NCBI RefSeq assembly: GCF_009905725.1
Contig: NZ_JAAAKV010000008.1
Span: 310,001 to 374,000 of the forward strand
From: Emticicia sp. CRIBPO
Lineage (GTDB): Bacteria; Bacteroidota; Bacteroidia; Cytophagales; Spirosomataceae
DNA length: 64,000 nt
Reading direction: 5' to 3'
In this document: piece after piece, positions 18,955 to 48,087 of the stretch
How positions within the stretch are numbered: position 1 is the first letter of the stretch
How the letters are laid out: each line of letters starts with the position of its first letter
Notes under the pieces: model-generated
Database searches by the model: none
Seen by the model: the letters and a program-made list of their open reading frames with translations, nothing else
Told to the model about the DNA's origin: nothing
Translations under genes and position numbers: made by a program

Positions 18955-19041
18955 GGCAACAATAAACTAACCCCCTGACCAAATAAACCAAGGAATTGGA
19001 CAGATAGACCAACAGGGTTGGTGGTGGGCAGGCTAGCTTTG
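18955..19041 (+). promoter_or_regulatory. Promoter with tandem 21 bp direct repeats (site A)
   Basis: Three units lie head to tail. Unit 0 is degenerate (18955-18975, AATAAACTAA). Unit 1 (18976-18996) begins TGACCAAATAAACCAA and unit 2 (18997-19017) begins TGGACAGATAGACCAA. A TTG follows directly (19018), and 17 bases lie between unit 1-2 and the next element less one: unit 2 ends at 19017 and TAGCTTTG, an exact -7 match, starts at 19034. The same arrangement recurs upstream of 28822 and 48189, so this is a shared activator site. Confidence 0.75.
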
Positions 19042-19092
19042 TGACAGTAATAAGGAACTGAAAAATCGATCTGAACCCAAAACTTACAGAAC

Positions 19093-19611
19093 ATGAAAAG
19101 AATGAGATTTTTGATACTCGCCCTGATGGTGTCTGTGGCGGGCTGTAAAAGCGAACCGTCGGAAGAATGTGTAAAACTGGAAGCCGCCAACAAGCAACTC
19201 GAGGCCAATTTAAAGATGTATGAAACCACCTGGGACGAGATTATCAACAAAGGCAAGATTGACCTGATCAACGAAACGAATTTTGACAAGAATATCACGC
19301 TTGTGACGGCCCCTGAGAACATCGTGGGTATTGAAGGGTTCAAGGCTTATTATCAGAACTACCTTACCGGGTTTTCGAAAGTGACGTTCACGATCGTCGA
19401 CGTGTTCGGCCAGGGCGACAAGATCGTGAAGCACTGGAACTTCAAAGGCACCCACAGCGGCGAATTCTTCGGTATTCCGGCCACAGAAAAGGAAGTAAAC
19501 GTGGATGGAGTGACCCTTGTGAAGATGAAAGACGGGAAAATAGCCCGGGAGCAGGATTTTATGGATAACCTGGAGTTTATGCAGCAGCTGGGGATTATCC
19601 CGCGACAATAA
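19093..19611 (+). CDS. SnoaL/NTF2-like lipoprotein
   Basis: The lipoprotein signal ends near Cys18 (VAGC). The mature part is a single SnoaL-like ester-cyclase fold: helix TTWDEIINKGKID, GIEGFKAYYQNYL, then strands KVTFTIVDVFGQGDKIVKHWNFKGTHSGEFFGIPATEKEVNVDGVTLVKMKDGKIA, ending in the usual DFMDNLEFMQQLG. NTF2-fold proteins bind small hydrophobic molecules and are sometimes enzymes; no catalytic residue can be assigned here. As a lipoprotein it would face an envelope compartment, which suits a ligand-binding or sensing role. It is driven by direct-repeat site A and begins the plus-strand run of genes to 28298. Confidence 0.8.
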   Translation: MKRMRFLILALMVSVAGCKSEPSEECVKLEAANKQLEANLKMYETTWDEIINKGKIDLINETNFDKNITLVTAPENIVGIEGFKAYYQNYLTGFSKVTFTIVDVFGQGDKIVKHWNFKGTHSGEFFGIPATEKEVNVDGVTLVKMKDGKIAREQDFMDNLEFMQQLGIIPRQ

Positions 19612-19751
19612 CAAGACTTTTGATCAACAGTCAGGATCGGCAGATATGAATTTTATAGCCATGAAAAGATAATTTTTGTACCTGGTTCTGCTGTTGGTTT
19701 TATATGCTTAACTTTACATACTTTGGTGTGTACGATAAAAGATCAATAAAC

Positions 19752-20648
19752 ATGAAGACATCGATGGCCTCCGGATTTTCAATTCTGGTTTCTTTATTCA
19801 TGTTCTCCTATTCTGTGCTCATGGCACAGGCGGGTCCTGTCATTAATGAGCAGAAAAAACATCTTTTAAAATCAGGTATCAACGGGGCTGATTACCACTT
19901 GAGTGTTTCCCTTCCTAAGCACTATGCTCCGGCTGAGGCGACCCGTTACCCGGTTTTATTTATGTTAGACGGAGGACTTGGTTTTCCGGTGGCCCATGCT
20001 GCCAGAACAGGTTTTGATATGTTCGGCGATATGGAAGACCTCATTATTGTAGCCATCGAATATGAATGGGAAAAATCGCTGAGCCCCTGGTTTGTTAACC
20101 GGAGCAGGGATTATACGCCCTCAAAGGACGCTGTTTTCGAGTCCAATCCCGGTTATGCTAAATTATTCGGGTTTCCCGAGGGCTCGCTGGTCACCGGTGG
20201 CGGGCCGGTTTTCCTGGACGTCATCAGAAAGGAAATCATTCCGTTTGTGGATAAAAACTATAAAACGACCAAAGACCGTGGCATATCAGGCCATTCATTC
20301 GGCGGTTTGTTTGTCGGCTATTGCCTTTTGACTGCCCCCGACCTTTTCCAGCGGTATGGCATCAACAGCCCTTCTTTCTGGTGGAACAAGAAAGAGATGT
20401 TTGGCATGGAAAAAGAATTTTCAAAACGTACTCAGAGTTTACCGGTAAAAGTATTTATGTCGGTGGGCAGTCTGGAGGGTAACTCGATGACTCCCGTCAT
20501 GACGGCCTTCGCAGACAGTCTGAAAAGCAGGAATTACCAGGGTTTGAGTTTAACTACGCACATTTTTGAGGGTGAAACGCATATGTCGGTAGTTCCGGCG
20601 ATGATCAGCCGGACACTCAGGGTTTTATATCCGGCGAAAAAAGAGTAG
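19752..20648 (+). CDS. Secreted alpha/beta-hydrolase, esterase D/Fes-like
   Basis: I place the start at the ATG at 19752, because it gives a clean signal peptide (ending LMAQAG); the upstream extension to 19704 begins with an unlikely leader. The fold follows the putative esterase family (IroE/Fes/esterase D): YPVLFMLDGG, then IPFVDKNYKTT, the nucleophile elbow GHSFGGLF near residue 180, and a late histidine in FEGETHMSVVPAM. It should hydrolyse an ester or siderophore-type substrate in the periplasm. The substrate is unknown and no siderophore genes are visible. It lies 140 bases after the SnoaL-like lipoprotein. Confidence 0.8.
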   Translation: MKTSMASGFSILVSLFMFSYSVLMAQAGPVINEQKKHLLKSGINGADYHLSVSLPKHYAPAEATRYPVLFMLDGGLGFPVAHAARTGFDMFGDMEDLIIVAIEYEWEKSLSPWFVNRSRDYTPSKDAVFESNPGYAKLFGFPEGSLVTGGGPVFLDVIRKEIIPFVDKNYKTTKDRGISGHSFGGLFVGYCLLTAPDLFQRYGINSPSFWWNKKEMFGMEKEFSKRTQSLPVKVFMSVGSLEGNSMTPVMTAFADSLKSRNYQGLSLTTHIFEGETHMSVVPAMISRTLRVLYPAKKE

Positions 20649-20699
20649 CCCTCAATGGCTTTGTTGATGATATTGATTTTGAAGTGAAATAATAATTAA

Positions 20700-21491
20700 A
20701 TGGAGGATTTTAAAGACAAAGTCGTCTGGATCACAGGAGCCTCTTCAGGTTTAGGCAAGTTTATGGCTTATGAATTTGCCAAGTCGGGAGCAAAACTGGC
20801 CCTGTCGGCACGCAGAACGACAGAACTGGAGCATGTTCTGGAAAAAGTGATGATATTGGGTTGTCAGGGCATCGTCGTACCCTGTGATATTATGGATGAA
20901 TCCGCCATTGAGCAGGCTGTCGCCACGATTACCGGGCATTTCGGCGGGCTGGATGTGGCCGTTGCCAATGCCGGCTTCGGTGTTTCCGGTAAAATTGAGC
21001 AGCTGAGTGCTGACGATTGGAAAAGACAGCTGGACATCAACGTGGTTGGCCTGGCGTTGACGGCTAAACATGCCCTGCCCCATTTAAGGGCGGTTAAGGG
21101 ACGCCTGGTGCTGATTGGCAGTGTGGCTGCTTACATTCCGAGTCCGGGTACCGGGGCTTACGGAGCCTCGAAAGCCGCTGTGCGGTCCATTGGGCAAACC
21201 CTGCAGCTGGAACTGAAAGGAAGCGGTGTAAGCTGCACCGTCATTCATCCGGGTTTTGTAGATTCGGATATCGCCAGGGTGAATAACGAGGGTGTTTTAA
21301 ACGCTGAAAAGACAGACCCAAGGCCCAAAAAACTGATGTGGCCCACTGAAAAGGCCGCGAAAGTGATGGTTAGGGCCATTGCATCAAGAAAGAAGTCGTT
21401 TGTATTTACAGGTCATGGGGTGATCATGGCCTGGATCGGTCAGCATTTTCCGGGTACAGCCGCCTGGTTGCTGGGCAAAGTGAGTCCGTAG
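20700..21491 (+). CDS. Short-chain dehydrogenase/reductase
   Basis: Classical SDR motifs are complete: cofactor loop TGASSGLG (residues 12-19), NAGFG near 91, a catalytic serine in LIGSVAAY near 140, and YGASK near 154. ARR after the second strand (ALSARR) suggests NADP(H) preference. Length (263 residues) is normal. The substrate is unknown. It sits between a secreted esterase and an amidohydrolase in an apparent operon (gaps of 51 and 62 bases). Confidence 0.88.
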   Translation: MEDFKDKVVWITGASSGLGKFMAYEFAKSGAKLALSARRTTELEHVLEKVMILGCQGIVVPCDIMDESAIEQAVATITGHFGGLDVAVANAGFGVSGKIEQLSADDWKRQLDINVVGLALTAKHALPHLRAVKGRLVLIGSVAAYIPSPGTGAYGASKAAVRSIGQTLQLELKGSGVSCTVIHPGFVDSDIARVNNEGVLNAEKTDPRPKKLMWPTEKAAKVMVRAIASRKKSFVFTGHGVIMAWIGQHFPGTAAWLLGKVSP

Positions 21492-21553
21492 ACAAAGTTT
21501 TAGTTTTTGATGAACCGGATGAAGTTCCGGCCATAGCCTTTAAAATCAAACCC

Positions 21554-22459
21554 ATGAAAAAGACCCTCCTATTTGTTTTACTGGGCTTACCGCTCCTGTC
21601 CACCGCCCAACGGAAGATCATAGACATGCATGCTCACTCTTATACCGACAGCGATTTCGGCGAACGTGAGCCTGCAGCCGATTTTTACGGCCGGAAAGGT
21701 TCAAAGAATGCGGAAGAACACCGTTCGGCCAGTTTCGCAGCCTTCAAAAAATGGAATGTTGTCAAAGCTATGGTCAGCGGTAATCCCGAAAGTGTGGAGA
21801 ACTGGGCTGCGAAAGACACTAACTTGGTGATCAGGGGCATCCTGATGTTTAATCCGGACGATTACGGCATGACACCGGACAAACTGGAACAGATGATCAA
21901 AGATAAAAAGCTGGAAGTCTTCGGCGAAATCGGTAATTACTACATGGGCACCATCCTGAGCGACCCGATATGGCAACCCTACCTGGCCATTTGTGAAAAA
22001 TTCGACATCCCGGTAGCCGTTCACACCGGTGGCGGTGATCCGGGAGGCACCTATTCCTGGTCGCCCAAAGCGAGGCTGGCCCTGGGAGATCCTTATCTGA
22101 TGGAAGATGTGCTGGTGAAGTATCCGAAACTCCGGATTTACCTGATGCATGCCGGAGGTGAGGAATGGCACGAACATACCTTGCGGCTGATGGCTTATTA
22201 TCCGCAGTTGTATACTGATATCGCGGTGATGCTGTGGGTGGAGCCGAACTCGCAGCGGACGATCAGGGAATTTCTGCAGCATGCCAAAGAAGCGGGCTAC
22301 CTTAACCGCGTCATGTTTGGCTCAGACCAGATGATATGGCCCTATGCGATAGAGAAATCGATCCGCTACCTCGACAACCTGAAGTTTCTGAGCAAAAAGG
22401 ATAAAGAGGATATCTTCTATAACAATGCCGCACGGTTTTTAAAACTGAAAAACGATTAG
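21554..22459 (+). CDS. Secreted amidohydrolase-2 family protein
   Basis: A signal peptide (ending STAQ) is followed by the metal-binding IDMHAHS motif near residue 24. Later come VAVHTGGGD near 157, LMHAGGEEWHEH near 198 and FGSDQM near 255. These histidines and the Asp are the expected metal and catalytic ligands of the amidohydrolase-2 TIM-barrel family, whose members hydrolyse or decarboxylate small carbonyl compounds. The signal peptide points to the periplasm, less common for this family. Substrate is unknown. Confidence 0.78.
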   Translation: MKKTLLFVLLGLPLLSTAQRKIIDMHAHSYTDSDFGEREPAADFYGRKGSKNAEEHRSASFAAFKKWNVVKAMVSGNPESVENWAAKDTNLVIRGILMFNPDDYGMTPDKLEQMIKDKKLEVFGEIGNYYMGTILSDPIWQPYLAICEKFDIPVAVHTGGGDPGGTYSWSPKARLALGDPYLMEDVLVKYPKLRIYLMHAGGEEWHEHTLRLMAYYPQLYTDIAVMLWVEPNSQRTIREFLQHAKEAGYLNRVMFGSDQMIWPYAIEKSIRYLDNLKFLSKKDKEDIFYNNAARFLKLKND

Positions 22460-22494
22460 GAAGCTGAAATGTCTATCAAACCAATACCCCTGCT

Positions 22495-23790
22495 ATGAAT
22501 TTAAATGAAAGTACACTATCCGCTTCAAAACTCTCAGAGAGGATCCAGTCGCTGGACATCATGAGAGGCATTGTCTTATTCGGCATCCTGCTGATGAACA
22601 TCAACGGCATGGGTCTCACGGGTGCTTATGACGACCCCACCGTGTCGGGAGGATCCACCGGATGGGATCTTTACACCTGGATAACCACCAATATGTTGTT
22701 TGAGGGCACCATGCGGGCTTTGTTCTCGCTGTTGTTCGGTGTAGGCATGTTTATTCTCCTGGAAGGCCTCGAGAAAAAAGGAGCCGGGATCACCGCCGCC
22801 AACATTTACTTCAGAAGGCTGACCTGGCTGCTGGTTTTCGGGCTGATCAACGGCTATCTGTTGTTATGGCGGGGCGAGATTCTGTACAATTATGCCCTGA
22901 TGGGCTTCCTGGTTTTTTCTTTCAGGAGTTTAAAACCCAGACAATTGATCCTCATATCCGTATTTCTGTCTGCCGTGGGTACGCTGTGGAGTTACACAGA
23001 GTACAAAAAGGATGTGAAGTTTATGGAGCAGCTGGAACTGGCCCAGAAAAATACAAGAGAAGGAAAGGCATTGTCGGCCGACATGAAAGAAGCCGATGAA
23101 AGATGGAAAAAAAGAACAGCGGACAGATCAGCTGAAGGTGTGGCGGCGAGCGATAAAAACATGCAAAAGGGCTACCTGGATGTGGTGACTTACCTTGCCC
23201 CGTTCAATACGCACTACAATGAGTTGTTTCCTTACCGCTACGATGTATGGGATATATTGAGCATGATGTTGCTCGGCATTGCCCTTTACAAACTGAAGAT
23301 ACTTTCGGGTGAAAAGTCGTATGGTTTTTACGGTCTCATGGTTTTACTGGGCTATGCTGTCGGATTAAGTGTCAATTATTATGAAACCCGGCTGATCATG
23401 GACAGTCATTTCTCTTTGCTGGGTTTTTCACAGGCCAATGTTACCTATGATGTGGGTCGTGTGCCTACGGCCATAGGACACGTCGGGCTGATTATGCTTT
23501 TCTGTAAATTACCGCTATTGAGCTGGCTGAAGACCGGGCTGGCCGCTGTAGGTAAAATAGCCCTGACAAATTACATCATGCATTCTGTGATCGCGATGTT
23601 CATCTTTACCGGTGCGGGGTTCGGGCTTTTCGGGAAACTGCAGCGTCATGAATTGCTGTATGTGGTGTTCACTATCTGGGTTGTTCAGCTGATCATCAGT
23701 CCCATCTGGCTGAAATACTTCCAGTTTGGCCCTATGGAGTGGGTCTGGAGAAACCTGAGTTATATGAAAAGACATCCTTTCAGAAAATAA
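22495..23790 (+). CDS. DUF418 (YeiB-like) integral membrane protein
   Basis: The start (RIQSLDIMRGIVLFGILLMNI), the FSLLFGVGMFI block, and the C-terminal GKIALTNYIMHS with FQFGPMEWVWR are hallmarks of DUF418/YeiB-type membrane proteins. Many membrane segments are visible with a soluble loop near residues 180-230. The family is distantly related to membrane acyltransferases, but function is not established. A second DUF418 gene lies at 27072 in the same run. Confidence 0.85.
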   Translation: MNLNESTLSASKLSERIQSLDIMRGIVLFGILLMNINGMGLTGAYDDPTVSGGSTGWDLYTWITTNMLFEGTMRALFSLLFGVGMFILLEGLEKKGAGITAANIYFRRLTWLLVFGLINGYLLLWRGEILYNYALMGFLVFSFRSLKPRQLILISVFLSAVGTLWSYTEYKKDVKFMEQLELAQKNTREGKALSADMKEADERWKKRTADRSAEGVAASDKNMQKGYLDVVTYLAPFNTHYNELFPYRYDVWDILSMMLLGIALYKLKILSGEKSYGFYGLMVLLGYAVGLSVNYYETRLIMDSHFSLLGFSQANVTYDVGRVPTAIGHVGLIMLFCKLPLLSWLKTGLAAVGKIALTNYIMHSVIAMFIFTGAGFGLFGKLQRHELLYVVFTIWVVQLIISPIWLKYFQFGPMEWVWRNLSYMKRHPFRK

Positions 23791-23808
23791 ACATTAAACC
23801 CCTGCCCT

Positions 23809-24507
23809 ATGGAAACCCTCAGAACAGAACAAGTCAGGAAAATCCGCTTTGATAAGTCGGGTTACTATTTTATCGCTTTGATGGCCCTGGCCTTTGCCGG
23901 CTTCTGGAAGTCGTATTTCTCTAAATTTTTCAGCGGTACGAACGATTTCAACTTCTATTTTCACTTTCATGCGTTCATGATGGTGCTTTGGGTGACCTTG
24001 CTCATTGTCCAGCCCCTGCTGATCCGCAAAAAGAAGCTGGAATTGCACAGAATGATCGGTAGGCTGACCTACGTTCTGATGCCGGTGATGCTGATATCGG
24101 TGCTATTGATATTAAATAGTGGTATGAAAGCCGTTCCGGCAGCAGACCTTGCTTTCGCGAATGTACTTTTCCCGGTAAGGGACTTCTTCTTCCTGGCCAT
24201 CTACTTCAGCATCGGCGTGGCGTACAGACGTCAGGTACAGATACACGCCAGGGCCATGATCGTAACAGGTATTGTGTTTATAGAGCCCGCCCTTTTCAGG
24301 TTTGTGGGCGGCGAGATCGGAATTCCCATCATCCTTGGCCTGTTGATCACCCTGATTGTGCTCGAAAGAAAACAAAAGCAGGGAAGATGGCTGTTTCCGG
24401 CCTTCCTGATGGTGGATGTGATGGTTTACCTGTTGGTGATTTTCGAGGTTCCGCTGTCGTTTCTTGATCCTTTGGTGCGATGGTTTGTCAAACTGCCTCT
24501 GACGTGA
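23809..24507 (+). CDS. DUF2306-like integral membrane protein
   Basis: The product has about six or seven membrane segments. The block FYFHFHAFMMVLWVTLLIVQPLLIRKKKLELHRMIGRLTYVL is typical of a small family annotated as DUF2306-like or CopD-like membrane proteins, with conserved histidines that could bind heme or metal. It starts 18 bases after the DUF418 gene, so they are cotranscribed. Function is unknown. Confidence 0.6.
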   Translation: METLRTEQVRKIRFDKSGYYFIALMALAFAGFWKSYFSKFFSGTNDFNFYFHFHAFMMVLWVTLLIVQPLLIRKKKLELHRMIGRLTYVLMPVMLISVLLILNSGMKAVPAADLAFANVLFPVRDFFFLAIYFSIGVAYRRQVQIHARAMIVTGIVFIEPALFRFVGGEIGIPIILGLLITLIVLERKQKQGRWLFPAFLMVDVMVYLLVIFEVPLSFLDPLVRWFVKLPLT

Positions 24508-24600
24508 GATGATGCCTCTCATGGCCATTAAATAGCTGATAGCAATGATCCCCGGAATTATTTTTATTTTAGAGAAAAACTGGGAAACATCCCCGAAACC

Positions 24601-25656
24601 ATGAAAAAACTGTTATTGATACTTATTTTTTCCAGCTATGCTATTTCCGCGGCATCACAAAATCTGCCACGCATCATTGTGCTGTCGACAGGCGGCACCA
24701 TAGCCGGTCAACAACCCAATACCGACCGGGCCGGGTATATACCGGGGAAAATCCCGGTAGATGAATTGCTGAAGAATATCCCTTCGATCAAACAGAAAGC
24801 CAATATCCAGGGAGAACAGATCGCCGCTATCGGAAGTTACGACATGACGGTTGAGATCTGGCTGAAACTAGCCAGGCGGATCAATGAAATATTTGCTAAA
24901 AATGAAGCGGACGGCGTGGTCATCACCCACGGAACGGACACCCAGGAAGAAACCGCTTATTTTCTCAGCCTGACGGTGCAATCAGACAAACCAGTCGTTT
25001 TAACCGGGTCCATGCGGCCCGGTACGGCCATCAGCAGCGACGGTCCTAAAAACCTGTATGATGCCATCATTGTAGCAAGTGATGTTAACAGTACCGGAAA
25101 AGGCGTACTGGTATGTTTCAATGAAAATGTATATGAGGCCCGGCATGTGGTGAAGGTAAACACTCTTAATGTCAACGCATTCGCAGCCCCAAATGCCGGT
25201 CCGATTGGTCAGGTGTATGATGGAAAAGTATCTTACAACGCTCCGTCGTCCGTTAAGAATCGCAGTTTTGTGCCTTTTGACATCAGTAAAACGGAAACTT
25301 TGCCGACGGTCGAAATTGTATATGCCTATGCGGATGCCTCCAATGTGGCTATCAATGCCTTTATTAATGCTGATCATCCGGGGATAATCATAGCCGGTAC
25401 GGGCAACGGGAGTATAAATAAAACCATATTGGAATCAGTAAAAACTGCGGTAAAAAAGGACATCATCGTGGTAAGATCGTCAAGGGTGGTGTCAGGTCAG
25501 GTGACTACGCAATATGTGGGGCCGTTTGAAGATGCAAAACTCGGAACCATCGTATCGAATAAACTCAATCCCCAGAAAGCCAGGATACTTTTAATGCTGG
25601 CTTTAACGGTGACAAAAGATAAGAGTAAAATTCAGGAGATGTTCCTTACTTATTGA
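24601..25656 (+). CDS. ansB: Type II L-asparaginase, periplasmic
   Basis: A signal peptide (ending AASQ, ~20 residues) precedes the two catalytic threonine motifs of bacterial asparaginases: STGGTIAG near residue 31 and THGTDTQEETAYF near 109. The SMRPGTAISSDGPKNLYDAI block follows. Together they indicate periplasmic hydrolysis of asparagine (and some glutamine) to aspartate and ammonia. Length (351 residues) and motif order match type II enzymes. It fits with the amino-acid and peptide enzymes further right (45.4-50.4 kb). Confidence 0.92.
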   Translation: MKKLLLILIFSSYAISAASQNLPRIIVLSTGGTIAGQQPNTDRAGYIPGKIPVDELLKNIPSIKQKANIQGEQIAAIGSYDMTVEIWLKLARRINEIFAKNEADGVVITHGTDTQEETAYFLSLTVQSDKPVVLTGSMRPGTAISSDGPKNLYDAIIVASDVNSTGKGVLVCFNENVYEARHVVKVNTLNVNAFAAPNAGPIGQVYDGKVSYNAPSSVKNRSFVPFDISKTETLPTVEIVYAYADASNVAINAFINADHPGIIIAGTGNGSINKTILESVKTAVKKDIIVVRSSRVVSGQVTTQYVGPFEDAKLGTIVSNKLNPQKARILLMLALTVTKDKSKIQEMFLTY

Positions 25657-25711
25657 CTTAAAAAAGGACAATCCCTGAGAGATTTTTAACCTAACTAAAT
25701 ATAAAAAGACT

Positions 25712-26875
25712 ATGACAGACCTTAACAAAAACAGAATTGAATCTATTGATCTTTTGAAAGGATTGGTCATGGTGGTCATGGCCCTTGACCATACCCGGGA
25801 CTATTTTTATAACTCTGTTGGTGTGTTGGACATCACCGACCCTGCCCAGGCCACCCTGGTGGTTTATTTTACCCGTTGGGTTACCCATTTCTGTGCCCCA
25901 ACTTTCAGTTTCCTGGCCGGAATATCCGCTTTTATGAGTGGTAAAAGAAAAACAAAGGCCGAACTTTCAACTTTTCTCATCAAGCGTGGGCTGTGGCTGG
26001 TTTTCCTGGAGCTGACGATCATCACCTTTGCCTGGTATTTTGACGTGCAGTTCCGGAATGTGGATATGGCTGTGATCTGGTGCCTGGGCATCAGCATGAT
26101 TTTTCTCGCCGGGTTTATCCATTTACCGAAAAACGCGATCCTGGTAATCTCCTGTATACTCATCTTCGGGCATAACCTCCTGGATACGGTTCATTTTGAT
26201 GGCAGTGTGTGGTGGAGCGTGCTTCATGAGTTTACCACTGTCAAATTATCGGCTAAGCACCAAATTAACATCGTTTATCCCATCATCCCCTGGATCGGTG
26301 TAATGGCCCTAGGCTATTATTTCGGCAATTTCTATGCCTCTTCTTTCGGAAATCACCGCAGAAAGAAGCTGTTCAATACCATCGGATTCTCGGCCCTTTT
26401 GCTTTTTGTATTGCTCCGCTGGTCCAACCTGTACGGCGACCCGCAGCCATGGAAATCCTATGAAACAGCCGCTCAGACCCTGATGTCATTCCTGAATGTG
26501 AATAAATACCCGCCGTCACTTTTGTATCTGCTGGTTACTTTATCTGTTGCTTTATTGTTTCTTGCCAATTCAGAAAAGTGGAAAGGGAAACTGGTTGAGT
26601 TCTTCAGCGTCTTTGGCAGGGTGCCGTTTTTCTATTATATCATGCATTTGTATCTGATCCGTGTGCTTTCTTTCATCACCGCTGAGCTGACCGGGCACGG
26701 CTGGGAGCTGATGGTACAGACTTCATTCGACATTAACCTGAAAGACTTCGGTTTTAATCTCGGCGTCGTTTACCTGATCTGGATGGGGATTGTTTTGATG
26801 CTTTATCCTTTGTGTAAAAAGTTTGACGCCTATAAAAAGAAACATAAGGAGAAATGGTGGCTGGGGTATTTGTAG
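25712..26875 (+). CDS. DUF1624-family membrane protein (heparan-alpha-glucosaminide acetyltransferase-like)
   Basis: The N-terminus IESIDLLKGLVMVVMALDHTRDYF is the signature of DUF1624/YeiB-related membrane proteins. Around ten hydrophobic segments follow, with conserved blocks YFTRWVTHFCAPTFSFLAG and FGRVPFFYYIMHLYLI. Relatives include eukaryotic lysosomal acetyltransferases, which move acyl groups across a membrane. Whether this protein transfers acyl groups is not shown. It is one of four YeiB/DUF-type membrane proteins in this run. Confidence 0.8.
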   Translation: MTDLNKNRIESIDLLKGLVMVVMALDHTRDYFYNSVGVLDITDPAQATLVVYFTRWVTHFCAPTFSFLAGISAFMSGKRKTKAELSTFLIKRGLWLVFLELTIITFAWYFDVQFRNVDMAVIWCLGISMIFLAGFIHLPKNAILVISCILIFGHNLLDTVHFDGSVWWSVLHEFTTVKLSAKHQINIVYPIIPWIGVMALGYYFGNFYASSFGNHRRKKLFNTIGFSALLLFVLLRWSNLYGDPQPWKSYETAAQTLMSFLNVNKYPPSLLYLLVTLSVALLFLANSEKWKGKLVEFFSVFGRVPFFYYIMHLYLIRVLSFITAELTGHGWELMVQTSFDINLKDFGFNLGVVYLIWMGIVLMLYPLCKKFDAYKKKHKEKWWLGYL

Positions 26876-26920
26876 GTTTGAGCGGTAAGCTATAAGCTTT
26901 AAGCAGTAGGCTGTTCTCCA

Positions 26921-26950
26921 TGTAGATACACACAGCCGTGTGTATCTACG
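26921..26950. repeat. Intergenic palindrome, family P2
   Basis: TGTAGATACACACAG / CCGTGTGTATCTACG. Against the copy at 6828, C:G pairs in the arms became T:A or A:T on both sides (TACGCAC..GTGCGTA against TACACAC..GTGTGTA), so pairing is kept. Confidence 0.65.
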
Positions 26951-26988
26951 GTATTGATAATATCTGTAGAAAATTGATTTTAAATATC

Positions 26989-27016
26989 TGCAGAGAAAGC
27001 TTGCATGCAACGTCTG
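26989..27016. repeat. Intergenic palindrome, family P1
   Basis: CAGAGAAAGCTTGC / ATGCAACGTCTGTTT. The right arm is intact and the left arm is decayed. Confidence 0.45.
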
Positions 27017-27071
27017 TTTGCCGGAAAGAAATTTTATGTTTAAATTACCTGAAATTACCCCCTAAACAGCC

Positions 27072-28360: not shown

Positions 28361-28388
28361 TGTAGAGACGTTGCATGCAACGTCTCTT
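28361..28388. repeat. Intergenic palindrome, family P1 (best copy)
   Basis: TGTAGAGACGTTGC / ATGCAACGTCTCTT: a near-perfect palindrome with core GAGACGTTGC/GCAACGTCTC. Confidence 0.65.
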
Positions 28389-28520: not shown

Positions 28521-28568
28521 CACTCATTGAACATTCACTCATTCATTCATTGAACATTCCCCAAGCCC

Positions 28569-36627: not shown

Positions 36628-36651
36628 ACGATACCTAACCTATATAAACCT

Positions 36652-37929: not shown

Positions 37930-37934
37930 AACAC

Positions 37935-40714: not shown

Positions 40715-40910
40715 GTACATAGGTAATCGGATTATAAGAATTTATAGTGTATAAAAATACGGAAGCCAGGAAATTATTTAACTCCTGAGGCACCTGAAAC
40801 GGTATTTGCAAAGGAGTGGAAGAGAATTGAAAGTAGGGACAAAGAAGGATATTTTCGGAGTTTATTGTTACTTTGCATGCATAACTTTTTTAAATATTAC
40901 TAATGTAGTT

Positions 40911-42278
40911 ATGGTTTTACAGACGATACTGACACTCATCATTTTGAGTCAATTACGCAAAACTCTTAAAACAGCCGGACTGCTATCCAAATGGGATAAA
41001 CTTATCTGGACTGGTGTATTTCTTTGCATCGCATTGATCGTGCTTAATTCCATCCTGAAAGAAAACGTGCAGATCGCAATTTGGCTCAGTCATGCACTGT
41101 TTTTCTCGTTATTGTATCTGATATTTACGCAAAAAGAGTTTCTTTCGGCAAAACCTTTGATATATGCACTGTTGCCTTTAACAGCTATCAACTTTATTGA
41201 AGATGTAGTTAAAGCAGTAGATCATGATTTTTATAAAAGCACGGAGGATTATTTCGGGACAGCCGTAATGTTCGCTGTTGTCTGGATGATAGCTATGCTC
41301 ATTATTAATAACAAACAAAAAAAAGAGCTTGAAAATGAGCGGCTAAAAAATGAAGAAAAAGAAAAGGAATATAAAATAACCGAAACTTTAAAAGCTGCTT
41401 TGGAAGTGCAGGTAAAAGAACGCACCGCAGAATTAACAAGACAAAAAGAAGAGTTGGAGCAAACGCTTAATGAACTGAAGTCTGCCCAGTCCCAACTCAT
41501 TCAATCTGAAAAAATGGCAAGTTTAGGCGAACTCACCGCCGGCATTGCCCACGAGATACAAAACCCGTTAAATTTTGTCAATAATTTTTCAGAAGTAAGC
41601 AAAGAACTGCTCGACGAAATGAAGGCAGAGATGGATATGGGTAATGGTGAGGCAGCAAGAGATCTTGCAGATGATGTTATCCAAAACCTGGAAAAGATAA
41701 ATCATCATGGAAAACGGGCTGATGCCATCGTTAAGGGCATGTTGCAACATTCGAGGGCAAGCTCGAATGAAAAAGAACCGGTCGATATCAATGCTCTGTG
41801 CGACGAATACCTGCGTCTCTCCTATCATGGCCTCCGGGCAAAGGACAAGTCTTTTAACGCAACCCTGAAAACAGATTTCGATGACTCGATAAAGAAAATT
41901 AACATAGTTCCTCAAGACGTCGGAAGGGTGATCATGAATTTACTGACCAATGCATTTTATGCGGTAACAGAGAAGAAAGTGGACATGATCGCGGCAGGAC
42001 TAAAATATGAGCCAAGTGTGTCAATCATTACTAAAAAGGTACCTGAAGGAGTGGAAATAAGGGTATGCGATAACGGTAAGGGAATTCCGGAAGAGATAAA
42101 AGAAAAAATTTTTCAACCTTTTTTTACCACTAAACCCACCGGAAAAGGCACGGGATTGGGCTTGTCGTTGAGCTATGACATCATCACCAAAGGCCATAAT
42201 GGTGAACTGAAAGTGGAAACAAAGGAAAACGATTCAGAAAATACGGGTACCACCTTCATTATCAGTTTACCCGAATAG
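40911..42278 (+). CDS. Membrane sensor histidine kinase
   Basis: I place the start at ATG 40911 (MVLQTILTLIILS) rather than TTG 40806, since the upstream part has no coding character. Four or five hydrophobic segments (~1-130) without a large outside domain are followed by a coiled coil and the kinase core (His in GIAHEIQNP near 212, DNGKGIP, GTGLGLSLSYD). The region after the H-box (SKELLDEMKAEMDMG) differs from the other four kinases, so this is the most diverged of the set. It starts 196 bases after the previous gene and may have its own promoter. It directly precedes two response regulators. Confidence 0.8.
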   Translation: MVLQTILTLIILSQLRKTLKTAGLLSKWDKLIWTGVFLCIALIVLNSILKENVQIAIWLSHALFFSLLYLIFTQKEFLSAKPLIYALLPLTAINFIEDVVKAVDHDFYKSTEDYFGTAVMFAVVWMIAMLIINNKQKKELENERLKNEEKEKEYKITETLKAALEVQVKERTAELTRQKEELEQTLNELKSAQSQLIQSEKMASLGELTAGIAHEIQNPLNFVNNFSEVSKELLDEMKAEMDMGNGEAARDLADDVIQNLEKINHHGKRADAIVKGMLQHSRASSNEKEPVDINALCDEYLRLSYHGLRAKDKSFNATLKTDFDDSIKKINIVPQDVGRVIMNLLTNAFYAVTEKKVDMIAAGLKYEPSVSIITKKVPEGVEIRVCDNGKGIPEEIKEKIFQPFFTTKPTGKGTGLGLSLSYDIITKGHNGELKVETKENDSENTGTTFIISLPE

Positions 42279-42309
42279 AAATAATTTACTAATAAAAAGC
42301 CATAGAAAA

Positions 42310-42687
42310 ATGAAAATTCTCGTAGTAGACGACGAAACCGATGTACAGATGCTTTTTACCCAGAGATTCAGAAGCGAAATCCGGAATAAGGAGATGGAGT
42401 TTGCTTTTGCTTTTTCGGGCGAAGAAGCCATCGAATACATGGAGGGCCATGAAAACGAAGCAGTTCTGATTTTATCCGACATCAACATGCCGGGGATGAG
42501 CGGACTCGAGTTGCTGAAACATATTAAATTAAAATATGAAAAACCACCCCCGGTAGTCATGATGATCACAGCTTACGGCGATGATGAGAACTACAACGAA
42601 GCGATGAAGCTCGGGGCTGATGATTTTTTAACCAAGCCTGTAGATTTTCCTAAATTAAAAGAAAAGCTAAAAACCCAATTGATATGA
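42310..42687 (+). CDS. Single-domain response regulator
   Basis: The whole product is one receiver domain: acidic pair in KILVVDDE, phospho-acceptor Asp in LILSDINMPG near 58, Thr in MMITAYG, and Lys in FLTKPVD. It lacks an output domain, so it probably passes phosphate on or acts by protein contact. The next gene overlaps it by 4 bases, and the two receivers are similar (SDINMP in both). Confidence 0.9.
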   Translation: MKILVVDDETDVQMLFTQRFRSEIRNKEMEFAFAFSGEEAIEYMEGHENEAVLILSDINMPGMSGLELLKHIKLKYEKPPPVVMMITAYGDDENYNEAMKLGADDFLTKPVDFPKLKEKLKTQLI

Positions 42688-43715
42688 CCAAGATCTTAGT
42701 GGCCGACGACGAAGCAGACCTGGAAACGCTTATTCGTCAGAAATTCAGACAGAAAATCAGGGAACAGCAATATGAATTTGTTTTTGCCGTCAACGGACAG
42801 GATGCCCTTCATAAAATAGAAGAACATCCTGATATAGAAATTGTACTGAGCGACATCAACATGCCCGAAATGGACGGATTGACCCTCCTGACCAAACTGG
42901 GCGAAGGCAATCCGCTGATCAAAGCGGTCATGGTCTCAGCCTATGGCGACATGGACAACATCCGGGTGGCCATGAACCGCGGGGCTTTTGATTTTATCAC
43001 CAAACCCGTCAATTTCCAGGACCTGGAACTGACGATGGAAAAAACCATCGGGCATGTAAAACAGCTCAGGGAAACCTTGAAAGCCATCAAGGAAAACAAT
43101 ATCCTGAAGATGTATGTGGATGAGAATGTCCTTAACTTTATGGGAACGAGAGAATATGAGAATTCACTCACCGATAATGAAACGATTGAAGGCTCGGTGG
43201 CCTTCATTGATATCTGCAGTTTTACTTCTATCAGTGAAAAAGAAACACCCGACACTGTCGTGAAAATGCTGAACCAGTATTTTGATCTGATGGTAAAGGA
43301 AATCATTGCCCAGAACGGCATCGTCGATAAGTTTATCGGAGACTGCATTATGGCAGTTTTCAAAGGCCCTTTTCATCTCGACAGGGCCATCGACGCCTGT
43401 CTTAGCATAAAAAGCAAGATTGATCAGTTACCGGCTGATCATGGTTTTACACCCAAAGTCTCGATAGGCATCAATAGCGGAGAAATGGTCTCAGGCAATA
43501 TCGGGTCTGCCACTCTGAAAAGGCTGGATTACACCGTCATAGGCGACATTGTCAATACTGCTCAGAGACTACAGGGTGCCGCGGGCATAAACCAGGTGCT
43601 TATTACGGAAGAGTGCTACGAAAAAGTAAAGCAATCATTCAGTTGTAAGCAGATCGGAGCATCGACCCTGAAAAACAAGGCGGCCAAAGTAATGTTATAT
43701 GAAGTACTTAACTGA
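42684..43715 (+). CDS. Response regulator with class III adenylate cyclase output domain
   Basis: Residues ~1-125 are a receiver domain (KILVADDE, phospho-Asp in LSDINMPEMDG, FITKPVN). After a helical linker, residues ~165-343 are a class III nucleotide cyclase. Metal-binding Asp residues sit in VAFIDICSFT and KFIGDCIMAVF. The substrate-selecting pair is Lys (VDKFIGD) and Thr (YTVIGDIVN), and NTAQRLQ supplies the transition-state residues. Lys/Thr is the class IIIb pattern of adenylate cyclases such as Spirulina CyaC, many of which respond to bicarbonate. So phosphorylation from the upstream kinases probably controls cAMP synthesis. It overlaps the previous receiver gene by 4 bases. Confidence 0.87.
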   Translation: MTKILVADDEADLETLIRQKFRQKIREQQYEFVFAVNGQDALHKIEEHPDIEIVLSDINMPEMDGLTLLTKLGEGNPLIKAVMVSAYGDMDNIRVAMNRGAFDFITKPVNFQDLELTMEKTIGHVKQLRETLKAIKENNILKMYVDENVLNFMGTREYENSLTDNETIEGSVAFIDICSFTSISEKETPDTVVKMLNQYFDLMVKEIIAQNGIVDKFIGDCIMAVFKGPFHLDRAIDACLSIKSKIDQLPADHGFTPKVSIGINSGEMVSGNIGSATLKRLDYTVIGDIVNTAQRLQGAAGINQVLITEECYEKVKQSFSCKQIGASTLKNKAAKVMLYEVLN

Positions 43716-43800
43716 TGGAAGAAGGAGAATGGAGTATGGAAAACGAAAGTTATCGCGTCCTGCCTCACCGTTCGACCGGATAATCGTTCTACTATTCATT

Positions 43801-43830
43801 CCCGCCCGAACAAAGTTCAGGTCGGGTAAA
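43801..43830 (+). repeat. Intergenic palindrome, family P3
   Basis: CCCGCCCGAAC, AAA, GTTCAGGTCGGGTAAA. The inner stem GAAC/GTTC replaces GGGC/GCCC of the other copies with pairing kept. ATTCA-rich sequence follows (43831-43890). Confidence 0.6.
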
Positions 43831-43909
43831 CATTCAATCATTCATTTATTCTATCATTCATTCACTCTATCATTCTTTTATTCTCTCATTGAAAACTAAC
43901 TGAAATCGT

Positions 43910-45370
43910 ATGAAATATGAACAGGTTTATTCTTTTTTAATAGAAAAATTACAAACCGGATTACCCTCTTATACCACTTATCATGACGTTTCCCATACCC
44001 TGAGTGTGATTCAATATGCTGAAGAACTGGCGGCCTCAGAGAACATCACCGGCGATGAACTGACATTGCTCAAGACAGCTGCATTATTTCACGACGCGGG
44101 CTTTCTTCAGAGCCATATAGAGCATGAAATGCTCTCATGTAAACTCGCCCGGAAATACCTGCCTGACTATGATTACACCGAAGACCAGATTGAGAGCATC
44201 TGTTCGATGATCATGTCTACCAAACTACCGCAATCTGCCGACAACCAGCTTAGCCAGATACTCTGCGACGCCGATCTTTTCTATTTCGGAGATGATGATT
44301 ACCCGGCCAAAGCAGAAAAGCTGTACAAAGAATTCCACCATAACGGAATGATAAAAAACAGGGAAGAATGGGACCAGAAACAGGTTGAATTCGTTTCAGA
44401 GCACCAGTACTTTACGAAAGTCGCCCGGAAAAGCAGAGAAAAAGGAAAACAAAAAAACTTATTTAATCTTGTCTCAAAATTGGAACACTCAAAACATCTG
44501 AAAAAAAACAGTATTTCTGTAAACCTGCTGAAAGACGCCGTGTCTATGGTGGTCGGGGTCGTTATCGCCGCCTTTGCCTTAAAAGGCTTCCTGGTACCCA
44601 ACCATTTCTTTGACGGTGGGGTGACAGGTATTTCCTTATTACTTCACGAAATCTATCATATAAACCTTGCGGCGGTCATTATTTTGCTGAATATCCCTTT
44701 TATCATCGTCAGTTTTTTTACGGTCAGCAGAACTTTTGCATTGAGAACATTTATCAGTGTGGTTTTACTGGGCATATGCCTGGTACTGCTTCCCCAATTT
44801 TCACTCACCCATGATAAACTGCTCATTTCCATTTTCGGCGGGGCATTTCTCGGCATAGGCATCGGGCTGGTGATGCGGGCAGGTGCAGCTCTCGACGGGA
44901 TTGAAGTACTGGCCCTTTACACCCTGAAAAGAACCTCATTTACCATTTCTGAGATCATTCTGGGGATCAACATCATTATATTTACCATCGCCGCCTTTCA
45001 GTTTGGTATTGAAACAGCCTTATACTCTATCCTGACTTACTTTACAGCCACCAGGACGATCGATTATGTAGTGGAAGGCCTCCAGGCCCATACAGGGGTC
45101 ACGATCATTTCAAGCAAGAGTGAGGTAATCAAACACCAGCTCGTTAACACCATGGGCAAAGGAATCACGGTTTACAAAGGTGAGAGGGGCTTTCTGCCGG
45201 GGAATTTTGACGAAAGTGCCGATTGCGACATCATATTTACCGTCATTACCAGGCTGGAACTGAGGAAACTGAAAAATCTTATCGCGGAAGTGGATCCGCG
45301 GGCCTTTGTGTTTGCCAACACGATCAAGGAAGCCAGTGGCGGAATCCTTAAAAGACGGAATCGTCATTGA
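43910..45370 (+). CDS. HD-domain/YitT membrane protein fusion
   Basis: Residues ~1-190 form an HD phosphohydrolase-like domain: YHDVSHTLSVI, the HD pair in LFHDAGFLQSHIEHE, and CDADLFYFG. Residues ~205-375 are the YitT (DUF161) membrane domain (VVGVVIAAFALKGFLVPNHFFDGGVTGISLLLHE). The C-terminal ~395-475 is DUF2179 (GVTIISSKSEVIKHQLVNTMGKGITVYKGERGFLPGN), a domain thought to bind small ligands. Most YitT proteins have no HD domain. HD enzymes commonly cleave phosphate from nucleotides or cyclic nucleotides, and the neighbour upstream is a cyclase, so linked nucleotide turnover is possible but unproved. Confidence 0.8.
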   Translation: MKYEQVYSFLIEKLQTGLPSYTTYHDVSHTLSVIQYAEELAASENITGDELTLLKTAALFHDAGFLQSHIEHEMLSCKLARKYLPDYDYTEDQIESICSMIMSTKLPQSADNQLSQILCDADLFYFGDDDYPAKAEKLYKEFHHNGMIKNREEWDQKQVEFVSEHQYFTKVARKSREKGKQKNLFNLVSKLEHSKHLKKNSISVNLLKDAVSMVVGVVIAAFALKGFLVPNHFFDGGVTGISLLLHEIYHINLAAVIILLNIPFIIVSFFTVSRTFALRTFISVVLLGICLVLLPQFSLTHDKLLISIFGGAFLGIGIGLVMRAGAALDGIEVLALYTLKRTSFTISEIILGINIIIFTIAAFQFGIETALYSILTYFTATRTIDYVVEGLQAHTGVTIISSKSEVIKHQLVNTMGKGITVYKGERGFLPGNFDESADCDIIFTVITRLELRKLKNLIAEVDPRAFVFANTIKEASGGILKRRNRH

Positions 45371-45437
45371 TCCGGATTTATTCCCGGAAGTGCGTGATCG
45401 TCAGTTTTTTCATCACGATTTAAAATGTAGCCATTAC

Positions 45438-46595
45438 ATGAAAGCATCAGTATTTATTGCCTCTCTTCTGCTTGTTCCTGCCCTGACCATCGCCCAAAAG
45501 CCCAGGGCAAGGGATATCGGCGTGCCTTTTGACGGTAATCCTGGTAAGTTCAATGCCATCACCGATGTCAAAGGCGTTGAAGTGGGTTACAGCACGATTA
45601 TTTCGGGTCAGGGAAAGAATATAAGAGGCAAAGGCCCGGTAAGAACCGGGGTAACTGCCATTTTTCCAAGGGGGAGAAAGAACAATCCGGTGTATGCCAA
45701 CTGGTATTCGCTCAACGGCAACGGCGAAATGACAGGAACCACCTGGATCACGGAATCAGGCTTCCTGGAAGGTCCGCTCATGATCACCAACACCAACAGC
45801 GTAGGTGTCGTACGGGACGCGGTGTTAAAATGGTATGTCAAAAACAAATGGTATAACGAGGATTTCTGGTACACTTACCCTGTTGTGGCCGAAACCTACG
45901 ATGGCTTCATGAATGACATTTACGGCTTCCATGTGCAGGAAAAACATGCTTATGAGGCCCTGGATAACGCTAAAAGCGGCCTTCTGGCCGAAGGAAACGT
46001 CGGCGGCGGCACGGGCATGATGTGTCTGGGTTTTAAAGGCGGCACCGGAACCTCGTCCAGGGTGGTCAGCGTAAAAGACTCAACTTATACCGTCGGGGTG
46101 CTGGTACAGTCCAATTTCGGAGGCAAGCGGAACTTCACCGTGGCAGGCGTACCCGTCGGGAAAGAGCTGAAAGACACCCTGAACTACGAATTCAAAGCCC
46201 CGCCCTCCTATCAACCCGGTGACGGTTCCATCATTGTCGTAGTAGCAACAGATGCTCCCTTATTACCCCACCAGCTGAAAAGAATAGCCGCCAGGGTGCC
46301 ACTGGGTATCGGAAAAGTGGGTGGCAGAGGCGAAAATGGTTCCGGGGATATTTTCCTGGCGTTTTCCACGGCCAACCCCGGAGCATTTCAGCGGGAGAAT
46401 TTCGCTAAACTGGATGAATTTCCCAATGATCTCATCAATCCTTTGTTTGAAGCCACCGTGCAGGCTGTTGAAGAAGCCATCATTAATGCCATGGTGGCGG
46501 CAGAAACCATGGAGGGCATCAACGGCAACAAAGCCTACGGATTACCCCACAAAGAACTCATCGCGATCCTTAAAAAATATAACCGGGTAAAATAG
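45438..46595 (+). CDS. P1-family aminopeptidase (DmpA-like), secreted
   Basis: I place the start at ATG 45438, which gives a signal peptide (ending LTIAQ); the longer frame from 45306 overlaps the previous gene. The product follows the DmpA/L-aminopeptidase order: RDIGVPFDGNPGKFNAITDVKGVEVGYSTI, GPVRTGVTAIFPRG, TNTNSVGVVRDAV, and LAEGNVGGGTGMMCLGFKGGTGTSSRVV. In the last block the GTGTSS step is the likely self-cleavage site that frees the nucleophile serine. It probably releases N-terminal residues from peptides in the periplasm. A dipeptidase gene follows by 51 bases. Confidence 0.87.
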   Translation: MKASVFIASLLLVPALTIAQKPRARDIGVPFDGNPGKFNAITDVKGVEVGYSTIISGQGKNIRGKGPVRTGVTAIFPRGRKNNPVYANWYSLNGNGEMTGTTWITESGFLEGPLMITNTNSVGVVRDAVLKWYVKNKWYNEDFWYTYPVVAETYDGFMNDIYGFHVQEKHAYEALDNAKSGLLAEGNVGGGTGMMCLGFKGGTGTSSRVVSVKDSTYTVGVLVQSNFGGKRNFTVAGVPVGKELKDTLNYEFKAPPSYQPGDGSIIVVVATDAPLLPHQLKRIAARVPLGIGKVGGRGENGSGDIFLAFSTANPGAFQRENFAKLDEFPNDLINPLFEATVQAVEEAIINAMVAAETMEGINGNKAYGLPHKELIAILKKYNRVK

Positions 46596-46602
46596 TACAG
46601 CT

Positions 46603-46622
46603 GCGGGTTTCAACCCGTTGTA
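46603..46622. repeat. Short hairpin between the two peptidase genes
   Basis: GCGGGTTTCAACCCGTTG: stem CGGGTT/AACCCG with a two-base centre. No T tract follows, so it may modulate rather than end transcription. Confidence 0.45.
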
Positions 46623-46646
46623 AACAGAATAAAGCATTAATCCCTT

Positions 46647-47816
46647 ATGAAGTCAAAAATCATAATCCTGCTTGTCTTTTTTTCTCAGCAAGTGTTGGCA
46701 CAATCCTATCAGCAAGTCCATCAGAAGGCCATATTGGTAGATACACATAACGATATCCTGACCCAAACCATGGAAAAGGGGTTCGTTTTTGACAATGATC
46801 TTAAAGGTAAAACGCATAGTGACCTCAAAAGATGGAAACAGGGCGGTCTTGACGTACAATTCTTCTCCGTCTGGTCTGACGGCAACCAGGTGAAGCCTTT
46901 TGAATTTGCCGTAAGACAGATAGACTCGCTGGATGCCGTTATAAAACGCAATCCGGACAAGATCGTGAAGGTGGCCAACAGCACTGAACTTTATAAGGCC
47001 GTTAATCAGAAGAAAATAGCTGCCCTTATCGGCGTAGAAGGCGGTCACATGATCGAAGATGACATGACAAAACTGGATTATCTCTATAAAAGAGGTGTGA
47101 GGTACATGACCCTCACCTGGAACAACTCCACGCCCTGGGCCAGCAGTGCTTTTGATGAAACGTTCAGTAAAACGCTGGATCATAAAGGCTTATCAGATCT
47201 TGGTAAGCAGATTGTCAGAAGAATGAACACGCTGGGCATGATGGTGGACATCAGTCATGTCGGAGAAAAAACGTTCTGGGATGTCATAAAAACCACCAGT
47301 AAACCGATCATTGCCTCTCATAGCTCTGTTTATAACATTTGTCCTCACCAGAGAAACCTCAAAGACGAGCAGATCAGGGCCATCGCCAAAAATGGCGGGG
47401 TTGTCCAGGTCAATTTTTATTCAGGATTCATTGACAGTACTTATCAGCGTAAAAGCGACGCCTTTATAAACAGCCATAAGACAGAAAGCGATTCGCTCAC
47501 CCGCCTCGGAATGGCAGATTACCTGGTTGGCGAGTATTTGTTCTCTAAATATCCTGATGAAGTAACAGCCCTGAGACCCCCGCTTTCTTTACTGATACAA
47601 CACATCGAGTACATCATTAAGTTAGTGGGTGTTGACTATGTGGGCCTGGGCTCTGATTTTGACGGCATTGAGTCGGCTCCGCAGCAACTTGACGACGTCA
47701 CCTCCTACCCGCTGATCACCAAAGCCCTGCTAGAAAAAGGATATTCTGAAAAAGACCTCAACAAAATCCTTGGAGGCAATATCCTGAGGGTTCTGAAAGC
47801 GAATGAGGCAAAATAA
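46647..47816 (+). CDS. Membrane dipeptidase (peptidase M19 family), secreted
   Basis: A signal peptide (ending VLAQ) is followed by the M19 renal-dipeptidase motifs: VDTHNDI near residue 29, IGVEGGHMIEDD near 131, MVDISHVGEKTFWDV near 200, ASHSSVYNICPHQRNLKDEQI near 222, and GLGSDFDGIES near 330. These His, Asp and Glu residues bind two zinc ions. The enzyme splits dipeptides, often with D-residues. It fits a peptide-use cluster with the P1 peptidase before it and the YfcC carrier after. Confidence 0.9.
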   Translation: MKSKIIILLVFFSQQVLAQSYQQVHQKAILVDTHNDILTQTMEKGFVFDNDLKGKTHSDLKRWKQGGLDVQFFSVWSDGNQVKPFEFAVRQIDSLDAVIKRNPDKIVKVANSTELYKAVNQKKIAALIGVEGGHMIEDDMTKLDYLYKRGVRYMTLTWNNSTPWASSAFDETFSKTLDHKGLSDLGKQIVRRMNTLGMMVDISHVGEKTFWDVIKTTSKPIIASHSSVYNICPHQRNLKDEQIRAIAKNGGVVQVNFYSGFIDSTYQRKSDAFINSHKTESDSLTRLGMADYLVGEYLFSKYPDEVTALRPPLSLLIQHIEYIIKLVGVDYVGLGSDFDGIESAPQQLDDVTSYPLITKALLEKGYSEKDLNKILGGNILRVLKANEAK

Positions 47817-47852
47817 GCCTGTTAGTACTCAGCTTTTCTCAAAGACATATTC

Positions 47853-47884
47853 CTGCAGATAAGCACGCCTGTGCGTATCTGCAG
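47853..47884. repeat. Intergenic palindrome, family P2
   Basis: CTGCAGATAAGCACGC / CTGTGCGTATCTGCAG; outer arms CTGCAGATA/TATCTGCAG are intact. Confidence 0.6.
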
Positions 47885-48000
47885 CTTAATCTTAATAGTA
47901 TTCCGTCGCGTCCTGAATCCATTCAATCATTGAAATATTCCTTCACTGAAGTATTTAATAATCTCCCATTCAATCACTCACTCATTGAAAATTATACCCC

Positions 48001-48087
48001 CACAACAATAAGCCAAGCTTCTGACCAAATAAACCAAGCGATTGACCAGATAGACCAACACGTTTTTAATGGCTGAATATAACTTTG
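48001..48087 (+). promoter_or_regulatory. Promoter with tandem 21 bp direct repeats (site C)
   Basis: Unit 0 (48001-48021) is degenerate (AACAATAAGCCAAG). Unit 1 (48022-48042) begins TGACCAAATAAACCAA and unit 2 (48043-48063) begins TGACCAGATAGACCAA. TAACTTTG, an exact -7 match, is at 48080-48087, starting 17 bases after unit 2, exactly as at sites A and B. Confidence 0.75.

Follow-up and report, generated by a model that had tools for sequence, protein, structure and literature searches.

What reads the tandem repeats that stand before three widely separated promoters in the genome of Emticicia sp. CRIBPO, and what would it do there? The answer favoured here is that the repeats are probably operators of an AraC-type regulator encoded beside the first of them. 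The window (the whole stretch of 64,000 nucleotides analysed) is part of one contig (NZ_JAAAKV010000008.1; C38 in our numbering) of a 6.06-Mb genome, labelled G000, and carries three arrays of three units on the forward strand: array 1 at 18955..19012 (units at 18955, 18976 and 18997), array 2 at 28569..28625 (28569, 28589 and 28610) and array 3 at 48001..48058 (48001, 48022 and 48043). The pitch is 21 bp, with the sole exception of 20 bp between the first two units of array 2. Units run head-to-tail in the same order each time: a weaker distal unit (GGCAACAATAAACTAA in array 1, TGCAACAATAGACTAA in array 2, CACAACAATAAGCCAA in array 3), then TGAMCAAATAAACCAA, then TGRMCAGATAGACCAA. These coordinates bear out the first-pass annotation, which had described three sites, each with one degenerate and two good tandem units at a 20-21 bp pitch. 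Downstream of each array lies an exact copy of the TAnnTTTG -7 box of Bacteroidota sigma-ABfr promoters (TTTG and TAnnTTTG being the consensus as quoted in PMC10620806): TAGCTTTG at 19034..19041, TAAATTTG at 28647..28654 and TAACTTTG at 48080..48087, all on the forward strand. At all three sites 21 bases separate the last CCAA from the box; the annotation was right that this distance is fixed, and its figure of 17 bases fell on recounting. Units and box are kept across the three sites, and the remaining spacer sequence is unrelated between them.

The same phase is found in relatives. When exact TAnnTTTG boxes were sought at 42 loci, up to 45 bases from the last unit detected, 13 were found in 12 loci, at distances of 21 (six), 22 (six) and 10 bases (one, in a locus that also has a box at 22). 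Boxes with one mismatch (for example GAACTTTG) lay at 21-22 bases in nine cases and elsewhere in five (7, 13, 26, 34 and 35). The random distances from promoters that the annotation had named as the outcome to look for were thus not what was seen: 12 of the 13 exact boxes stand at 21-22 bases. A second regularity concerns the -33 element. None of the three window sites has a TTG at normal spacing (at site 1 a TTG lies merely 13 bp from the box), so the earlier statement that two of the three lack it was correct about the absence and too low in its count. Across 32 operator promoters, taken as those in which a box of the form TA, CA or GA..TTTG follows the array by 20-23 bases, TTG was found in none at spacers 15-23, and at spacers 13 and 14 in five and two, respectively. 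The operator promoters thus share with class II AraC/XylS promoters a proximal site that covers the -35/-33 position at fixed phase, and the -33 TTTG element of Bacteroidota sigma-ABfr promoters is missing from them over those spacers.

How specific is the motif? The exact sequence TGAMCARATARACCAA has five copies in the genome, all inside the three window sites, and allowing one mismatch adds two matches, one being the sixth good unit of the window arrays and the other lying at C6:13424. A single unit with two mismatches allowed is unspecific (61 genome matches vs 39 for a reversed control), and the exact tandem CARATARACCAA-N9-CARATARACCAA occurs at the three window sites only among 99 genomes searched, so that specificity is carried by the tandem. 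Within the window, a pair of units scores 49.8-51.9 at the three sites and 7.7 at the next best position, readings that use these arrays set aside. A genome-wide regulon was considered and rejected because a refined pattern (described below) matches nothing in this genome other than the three sites, and the regulon therefore looks local rather than global. The annotation's idea of an activator-dependent regulon is thus supported by linkage and phase and reduced in extent to three sites in its own genome.

The candidate regulator is a 625-aa gene at 16494..18371 on the forward strand, which ends about 580 bases upstream of site 1. Its product has an AraC/XylS double helix-turn-helix (HTH) at about residues 1-110, a predicted transmembrane (TM) helix at about 144-167 and a CadC-like, tetratricopeptide repeat (TPR) sensor part at about 175-625. 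Both Pfam models of the HTH score above their cut-offs (HTH_18, PF12833, 4e-22; HTH_AraC, PF00165, 1.5e-16) and there are several TPR matches; at E 0.001 Pfam returned AraC HTH and TPR families only, with no winged-helix Trans_reg_C. HTH relatives with solved structures include RamA (7bef, 2.3e-13), SoxS (2.4e-10) and MarA (1bl0, 2e-7). An AlphaFold2 model built from 21 sequences (mean pLDDT 88) places helices at 38-49, 88-99 and 144-167, and the last of these contains a hydrophobic 19-mer (mean 2.2) that starts at residue 145. In Foldseek the C-terminal part matches TPR proteins and the periplasmic domain of CadC (3ly8, 3ly7, 3ly9 and 3lya; TMt 0.66-0.68, rmsd 4.5, 13-14% identity), 3ly8 having TMt 0.68 over 310 columns, TMq 0.38 and rmsd 4.5; designed TPR proteins outscore the CadC structures by E-value. 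Two NCBIfam models also align, CadC at 1.9e-8 and HilA/EilA over residues 171-551 at 7e-12, both far below their cut-off scores. With an AraC HTH, a TM helix and a TPR/CadC-like C-terminal part, the modelled protein looks like a CadC-type sensor joined to an AraC DNA-binding domain. No report of such an AraC-CadC hybrid or of its operator was found by title or abstract in the open-access literature, which is weak evidence of absence.

The link between this gene and the arrays rests first on its recurrence in the Spirosomaceae, of which 222 genomes were searched (the family assignment is inferred). A first relaxed pattern was noisy at three mismatches, with a reversed control of the same order, and only its exact matches were used; these fell in the window genome (3), G023, G061, G079 (2), G213 (2) and G219. 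With the refined operator pattern there were 54 matches, spread over 27 of the 222 genomes and including two that overlap in one array, as against 2 reversed-control matches. This search was made without regulator positions, at a time when a few linked examples were already known. Linkage was counted among the matches listed, with a list of regulator homologues that ends at E of about 1e-20, so that links to weaker homologues are missed. On that basis a listed homologue is found within 1 kb of at least 34 of the 54 matches, within 5 kb of at least 36 and within 30 kb of at least 42; without the three window sites the counts are at least 33 of 51 within 1 kb and at least 39 of 51 within 30 kb. 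All 42 linked matches are on the strand of the homologue and 40 are downstream of it. The shared regulatory site that the first-pass annotation had proposed, with no regulator named, is upheld by this: a candidate lies beside site 1, and its homologues are linked to the same type of operator across the family.

Two scans that start from the regulator lead to the same place. In a model-free scan of the 600 bp downstream of 31 homologues, a lag of 21 was the commonest best lag (12 of 31, ties counted) and a lag of 40 the second (9); the mean best identity at lag 21 was 20.9/34 downstream, compared with 15.0-17.4 at the other lags from 15 to 44 and with 16.6 at lag 21 upstream. A leave-one-out unit profile, which began from a hand-typed consensus, carried no promoter constraint and covered 700 bp downstream, was applied to 42 homologues (among them 11 loci hand-picked from 77). 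It found a tandem pair downstream of 33 of the 42, upstream of none of 41 (one stretch being too short) and on the reverse strand in none of 42. With a laxer cut (score >=10), an array is found at 60 of 71 regulators, the profile having been trained on 42 of those same regulators. A TM segment is present, at the cut used, in 49 of 69 homologues of at least 150 aa. Membrane tethering was considered as the cause of the adjacency of operator and regulator and found unsupported, since shorter homologues without a TM segment also adjoin arrays. Two loci (L269 and L270) hold near HTH-only frames, of 114 and 124 aa, without a sensor and with an array directly 3' of each. A record named Flavobacterium sp. 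SUN052 holds two Spirosoma-like regulators (L172 and L177), L177 with a clear array and L172 with a weaker one, which would reflect either transfer or a misnamed or mixed assembly.

Covariation between regulator residues and unit bases was examined over 71 homologues, with L251, L260, L265, L267 and L271 removed for a frameshift or a weak HTH match (E 1.4e-5 to 3.5e-7) and with no HTH reading frame in L245, L246, L248, L262, L266 and L272. The units divide according to residue 42, which lies in the first recognition helix (counted in 58 of the 60 array-bearing regulators, units in register only). Under His42, 68 of 81 units carry AC at positions 9-10, and C at position 9 accompanies Phe42 in 16 of 20 units and Tyr42 in 16 of 22. 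With each regulator counted once, position 9 has C as its majority base for 1 of 35 with His42 vs 14 of 20 with Phe42 or Tyr42 (Fisher 1e-7), and after clustering of the HTH at 80% identity for 1 of 22 vs 8 of 12 (p 2e-4). In an unbiased mutual-information scan of 104 residues by 21 positions, N90-16 ranked first, and Y42-9 and S39-8 were in the top nine at both clusterings. In the alignment with RamA, S39, Y42 and N90 fall on W, Q and T, which are DNA-contacting positions in MarA. A joint test used the residues aligned to the MarA contacts (S39, Y42 and R43 for one helix; Q89, N90 and K93 for the other), R43 being invariant and Q89 nearly so among the homologues aligned. Since it was chosen after the ranking had been seen, its p values are optimistic: 1/3001 for matching half-units and about 0.001 for matching minus crossed. 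The crossed half-units, which are the fairer internal control, gave 0.38-0.47 alone. The covariation is compatible with the modelled helices 38-49 and 88-99 each reading one half-unit, the first HTH on the upstream half and the second on the promoter-proximal half, as in box A and box B of XylS.

Taken together, the computed support consists of repeat geometry, promoter phase, the missing -33 element, regulator linkage, protein-DNA covariation and predicted architecture. Linkage, phase and covariation make it very likely, as far as sequence comparison can tell, that the neighbouring AraC-CadC hybrid is the ligand of the operators, and activation is the best inference as to its effect. We put the probability at roughly 0.84 that the arrays serve as operators for the product of the gene at 16494-18371, an AraC-type regulator whose monomers would line up head-to-tail and replace the -33 contact in the manner of XylS. 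One DNA-binding domain would occupy each 21-bp unit through two adjacent major grooves, the first HTH on the upstream half (TTGRNCA) and the second on the downstream half (NACYAA), with two or three monomers arranged head-to-tail along a single face of the helix. The unit nearest the promoter would then stand in place of the -33 element, at a fixed 21-22 bp before TAnnTTTG, a class II geometry like that of XylS at Pm, and from that place the regulator could recruit the Bacteroidota sigma factor to promoters that lack a -33 element. In the form found in the window, the DNA-binding domain would in vivo be tethered to the inner membrane and coupled to a CadC-like periplasmic sensor, and an envelope signal would in that case switch on the adjacent operons.

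Several observations weigh against this reading. Among the matches listed, 12 of 54 have no homologue within 30 kb, and the DNA around these 12 held no homologue in seven (five loci) and only a C-terminal remnant in two, with three lying outside the DNA fetched. No array was found at 11 of the 71 homologues even with the laxer cut, and 20 of the 69 homologues of at least 150 aa have no TM segment at the cut used. A class-wide search of 395 genomes matched four (reversed control 0): the window genome, one other member of its family, and G342 and G618 of one other family. A candidate homologue beside the motif was sought in the stretches fetched from these last two and none was identified; homologues do occur at other places in the two genomes (best E 3.5e-32 and 1.2e-29, respectively). 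The figure of 0 of 32 promoters with TTG refers to operator promoters alone. In the covariation, no single residue-base pair is family-wise significant by permutation over clusters (best 0.108 and 0.132), and equally high ranks go to pairs that lie outside the recognition helices (second or third for L55-16, third or eighth for M74-11). The pair K93-18 ranks 20th and then, at 70% clustering, 286th; clustering leaves some phylogenetic signal; off-register units were left out of the residue-42 counts; regulators with Tyr42 include mixed arrays; and the choice of the joint test came after the ranking. Lastly, CAACAATA is a frequent reading of distal units (14 of 60 first units vs 2 of 60 last units), and an array placed beside a gene could act in repression as well.

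Repression by the same regulator is the alternative that survives best, and it is unlikely. The bound units would lie next to the -7 box and block polymerase, and geometry alone does not discriminate here, as the arrays overlap the -33 position either way. What speaks for activation is the nature of the promoters. Having no TTG at spacers 15-23 in any of 32 cases, they should be weak unaided. The fixed phase of 21-22 bp is also what contact with polymerase needs, whereas repression tolerates many operator positions.

Only slightly less probable is that another protein binds the arrays, either a second AraC protein or a response regulator of operon 2 (see below), the AraC-CadC gene being a mere neighbour. 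Several kinases and receivers are encoded in operon 2, the distal units have a consensus of their own, and the unlinked matches just mentioned would find an explanation. Yet the linkage recurs in many genera and includes the two near HTH-only frames described above, residues and bases covary in the expected halves of the unit, and the two receiver proteins of operon 2 have no Pfam DNA-binding domain at E 0.001. The distal unit that the first-pass annotation called degenerate may itself be non-random, given how much more often CAACAATA stands in first than in last units, in some arrays of the Phe/Tyr type too; that position could be contacted more loosely or by a different protein. That the three sites are duplicated copies of one intergenic repeat with no regulatory role is very improbable: an identical 28-bp palindromic element does lie upstream of sites 1 and 2, and an operator at G061:C35 follows a 96-aa remnant of a regulator C terminus, so that operators can travel by duplication, but the spacers outside units and box are unrelated among the three sites, and box phase and same-strand linkage are kept across genera.

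Operators of the regulator at 16494-18371, as we take the arrays to be, would head three sets of genes. The first putative target operon (19093..28298, forward strand, extent inferred from gene order only) runs in the order SnoaL protein, esterase, SDR, amidohydrolase, DUF418, unknown, asparaginase, HGSNAT-like and DUF418; its first gene is a clear SnoaL member (9.5e-28) with a lipoprotein-like signal and an ATG 51 bp after the box. The second (28822..47816, forward strand, extent likewise inferred) encodes a propeller/Y_Y_Y histidine kinase, four more kinases, two receiver proteins, and MpaB/Lcp-like, Pyr4-like TM cyclase-like, YitT, S58 and M19 proteins. One same-strand run within it, 28822-43715, brings together the five histidine kinases, the two receivers (one with a guanylate cyclase domain), the MpaB/Lcp-like oxygenase and the Pyr4-like membrane cyclase homologue. 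The third target is a gene at 48189..48728 on the forward strand, with a weak SnoaL_2 match and a lipoprotein-like signal; its start is taken at 48189, as the mechanical open reading frame start at 48069 sits upstream of the -7 box. In a Dyadobacter locus (L128), the gene that comes first after regulator and operator has a product 50% identical to it. The window copy of this target lies 30 kb from the regulator and has nonetheless retained its operator, two other gene runs headed by operators standing in between. First genes behind operators in relatives are often exported-looking, with signal-like N termini. A protein scan took 9 of 20 first genes from relatives together with the gene at 48189; among these ten, six match a SnoaL family (one above cut-off), two have a secretion-tail domain below cut-off and two have no match. 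Judged by sequence, the leading genes at sites 1 and 3 seem to encode exported lipoproteins of SnoaL/NTF2-like type.

Other features of the window deserve mention. Palindromic intergenic elements of two kinds (GCCCGGGCGGAGCCCAGGTCGGGCAGGC and GACGTTGCATGCAACGTC) occur upstream of sites 1 and 2, at 18398-18425 (reverse strand), 18902-18929 (forward) and 28494-28521 (forward), and at 18554-18575, 18712-18733 and 28365-28386. With a Y1 (IS200-like) transposase gene at 10553-11185 on the reverse strand, they resemble REP/RAYT elements, which may be the reason for the long gap between regulator and operator here. Between 12199 and 16078 stand two AAA/ABC-type ATPase genes and then a DUF4276/RloB-like gene (a sub-threshold match), possibly a defence module.

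How might such a system spread? At L093:15883-16170 a C-terminal remnant of a regulator is followed directly by an operator and a further gene, and a similar remnant occurs in L095; copying of the operator with the C-terminal end of the regulator is a plausible route. This feeds a broader proposal, in which we place belief and doubt in equal measure, of lineage-wide private switches: membrane-tethered AraC-CadC activators and their soluble sisters would each sit beside their own 21-bp tandem operator, operator and two or three recognition-helix residues would drift together, and regulons would grow as the operator and the 3' end of the regulator are copied before new targets. If so, a single gene neighbourhood would give a natural protein-DNA specificity code. 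Some two dozen related genomes keep the pair of gene and operator, each in its own version, and regulator, operator, phase to the -7 box and first target can be read from them directly; part of the DNA-reading code may be readable from genomes in the same way. To our knowledge, activators whose operator is known are scarce for Bacteroidota outside gut genera. The system opens two questions to testing: by what means an activator takes over the -33 contact of the Bacteroidota sigma factor, and which bases are selected by which residues of the AraC recognition helices.

The system has partial likenesses to several known regulators. MarA, RamA and SoxS are sequence relatives of the HTH, but they are lone HTH proteins that act on single sites, whereas the window system has tandem arrays and a sensor. 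CadC, which is ToxR-like, offers the same predicted order of an N-terminal DNA-binding domain, one TM helix and a C-terminal part that matches its periplasmic domain; its DNA-binding domain is a winged helix, in contrast to the AraC double HTH found here, so that an AraC HTH on a CadC-like sensor would unite two classic regulator families in one protein. The likeness to HilA/EilA is the sub-threshold alignment given above, and HilA itself lacks a TM segment and binds DNA through a winged helix. The closest parallel for the operators is Pm, where the XylS repeats have a 21-bp pitch. According to a passage in PMC5481539, XylS binds tandem 15-bp direct repeats, each made of a 5' box A and a 3' box B for the two recognition helices of a monomer, with an overlap with the polymerase site. 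The window system shares the tandem direct repeats, the proximal site that would overlap the polymerase site and, probably, the two-part units; it differs in the sequence of the unit, in its Bacteroidota TAnnTTTG promoter and in the build of the regulator, which carries its HTH at the N terminus, followed by a TM helix and a CadC-like/TPR sensor, where a XylS-type protein has an N-terminal ligand domain.

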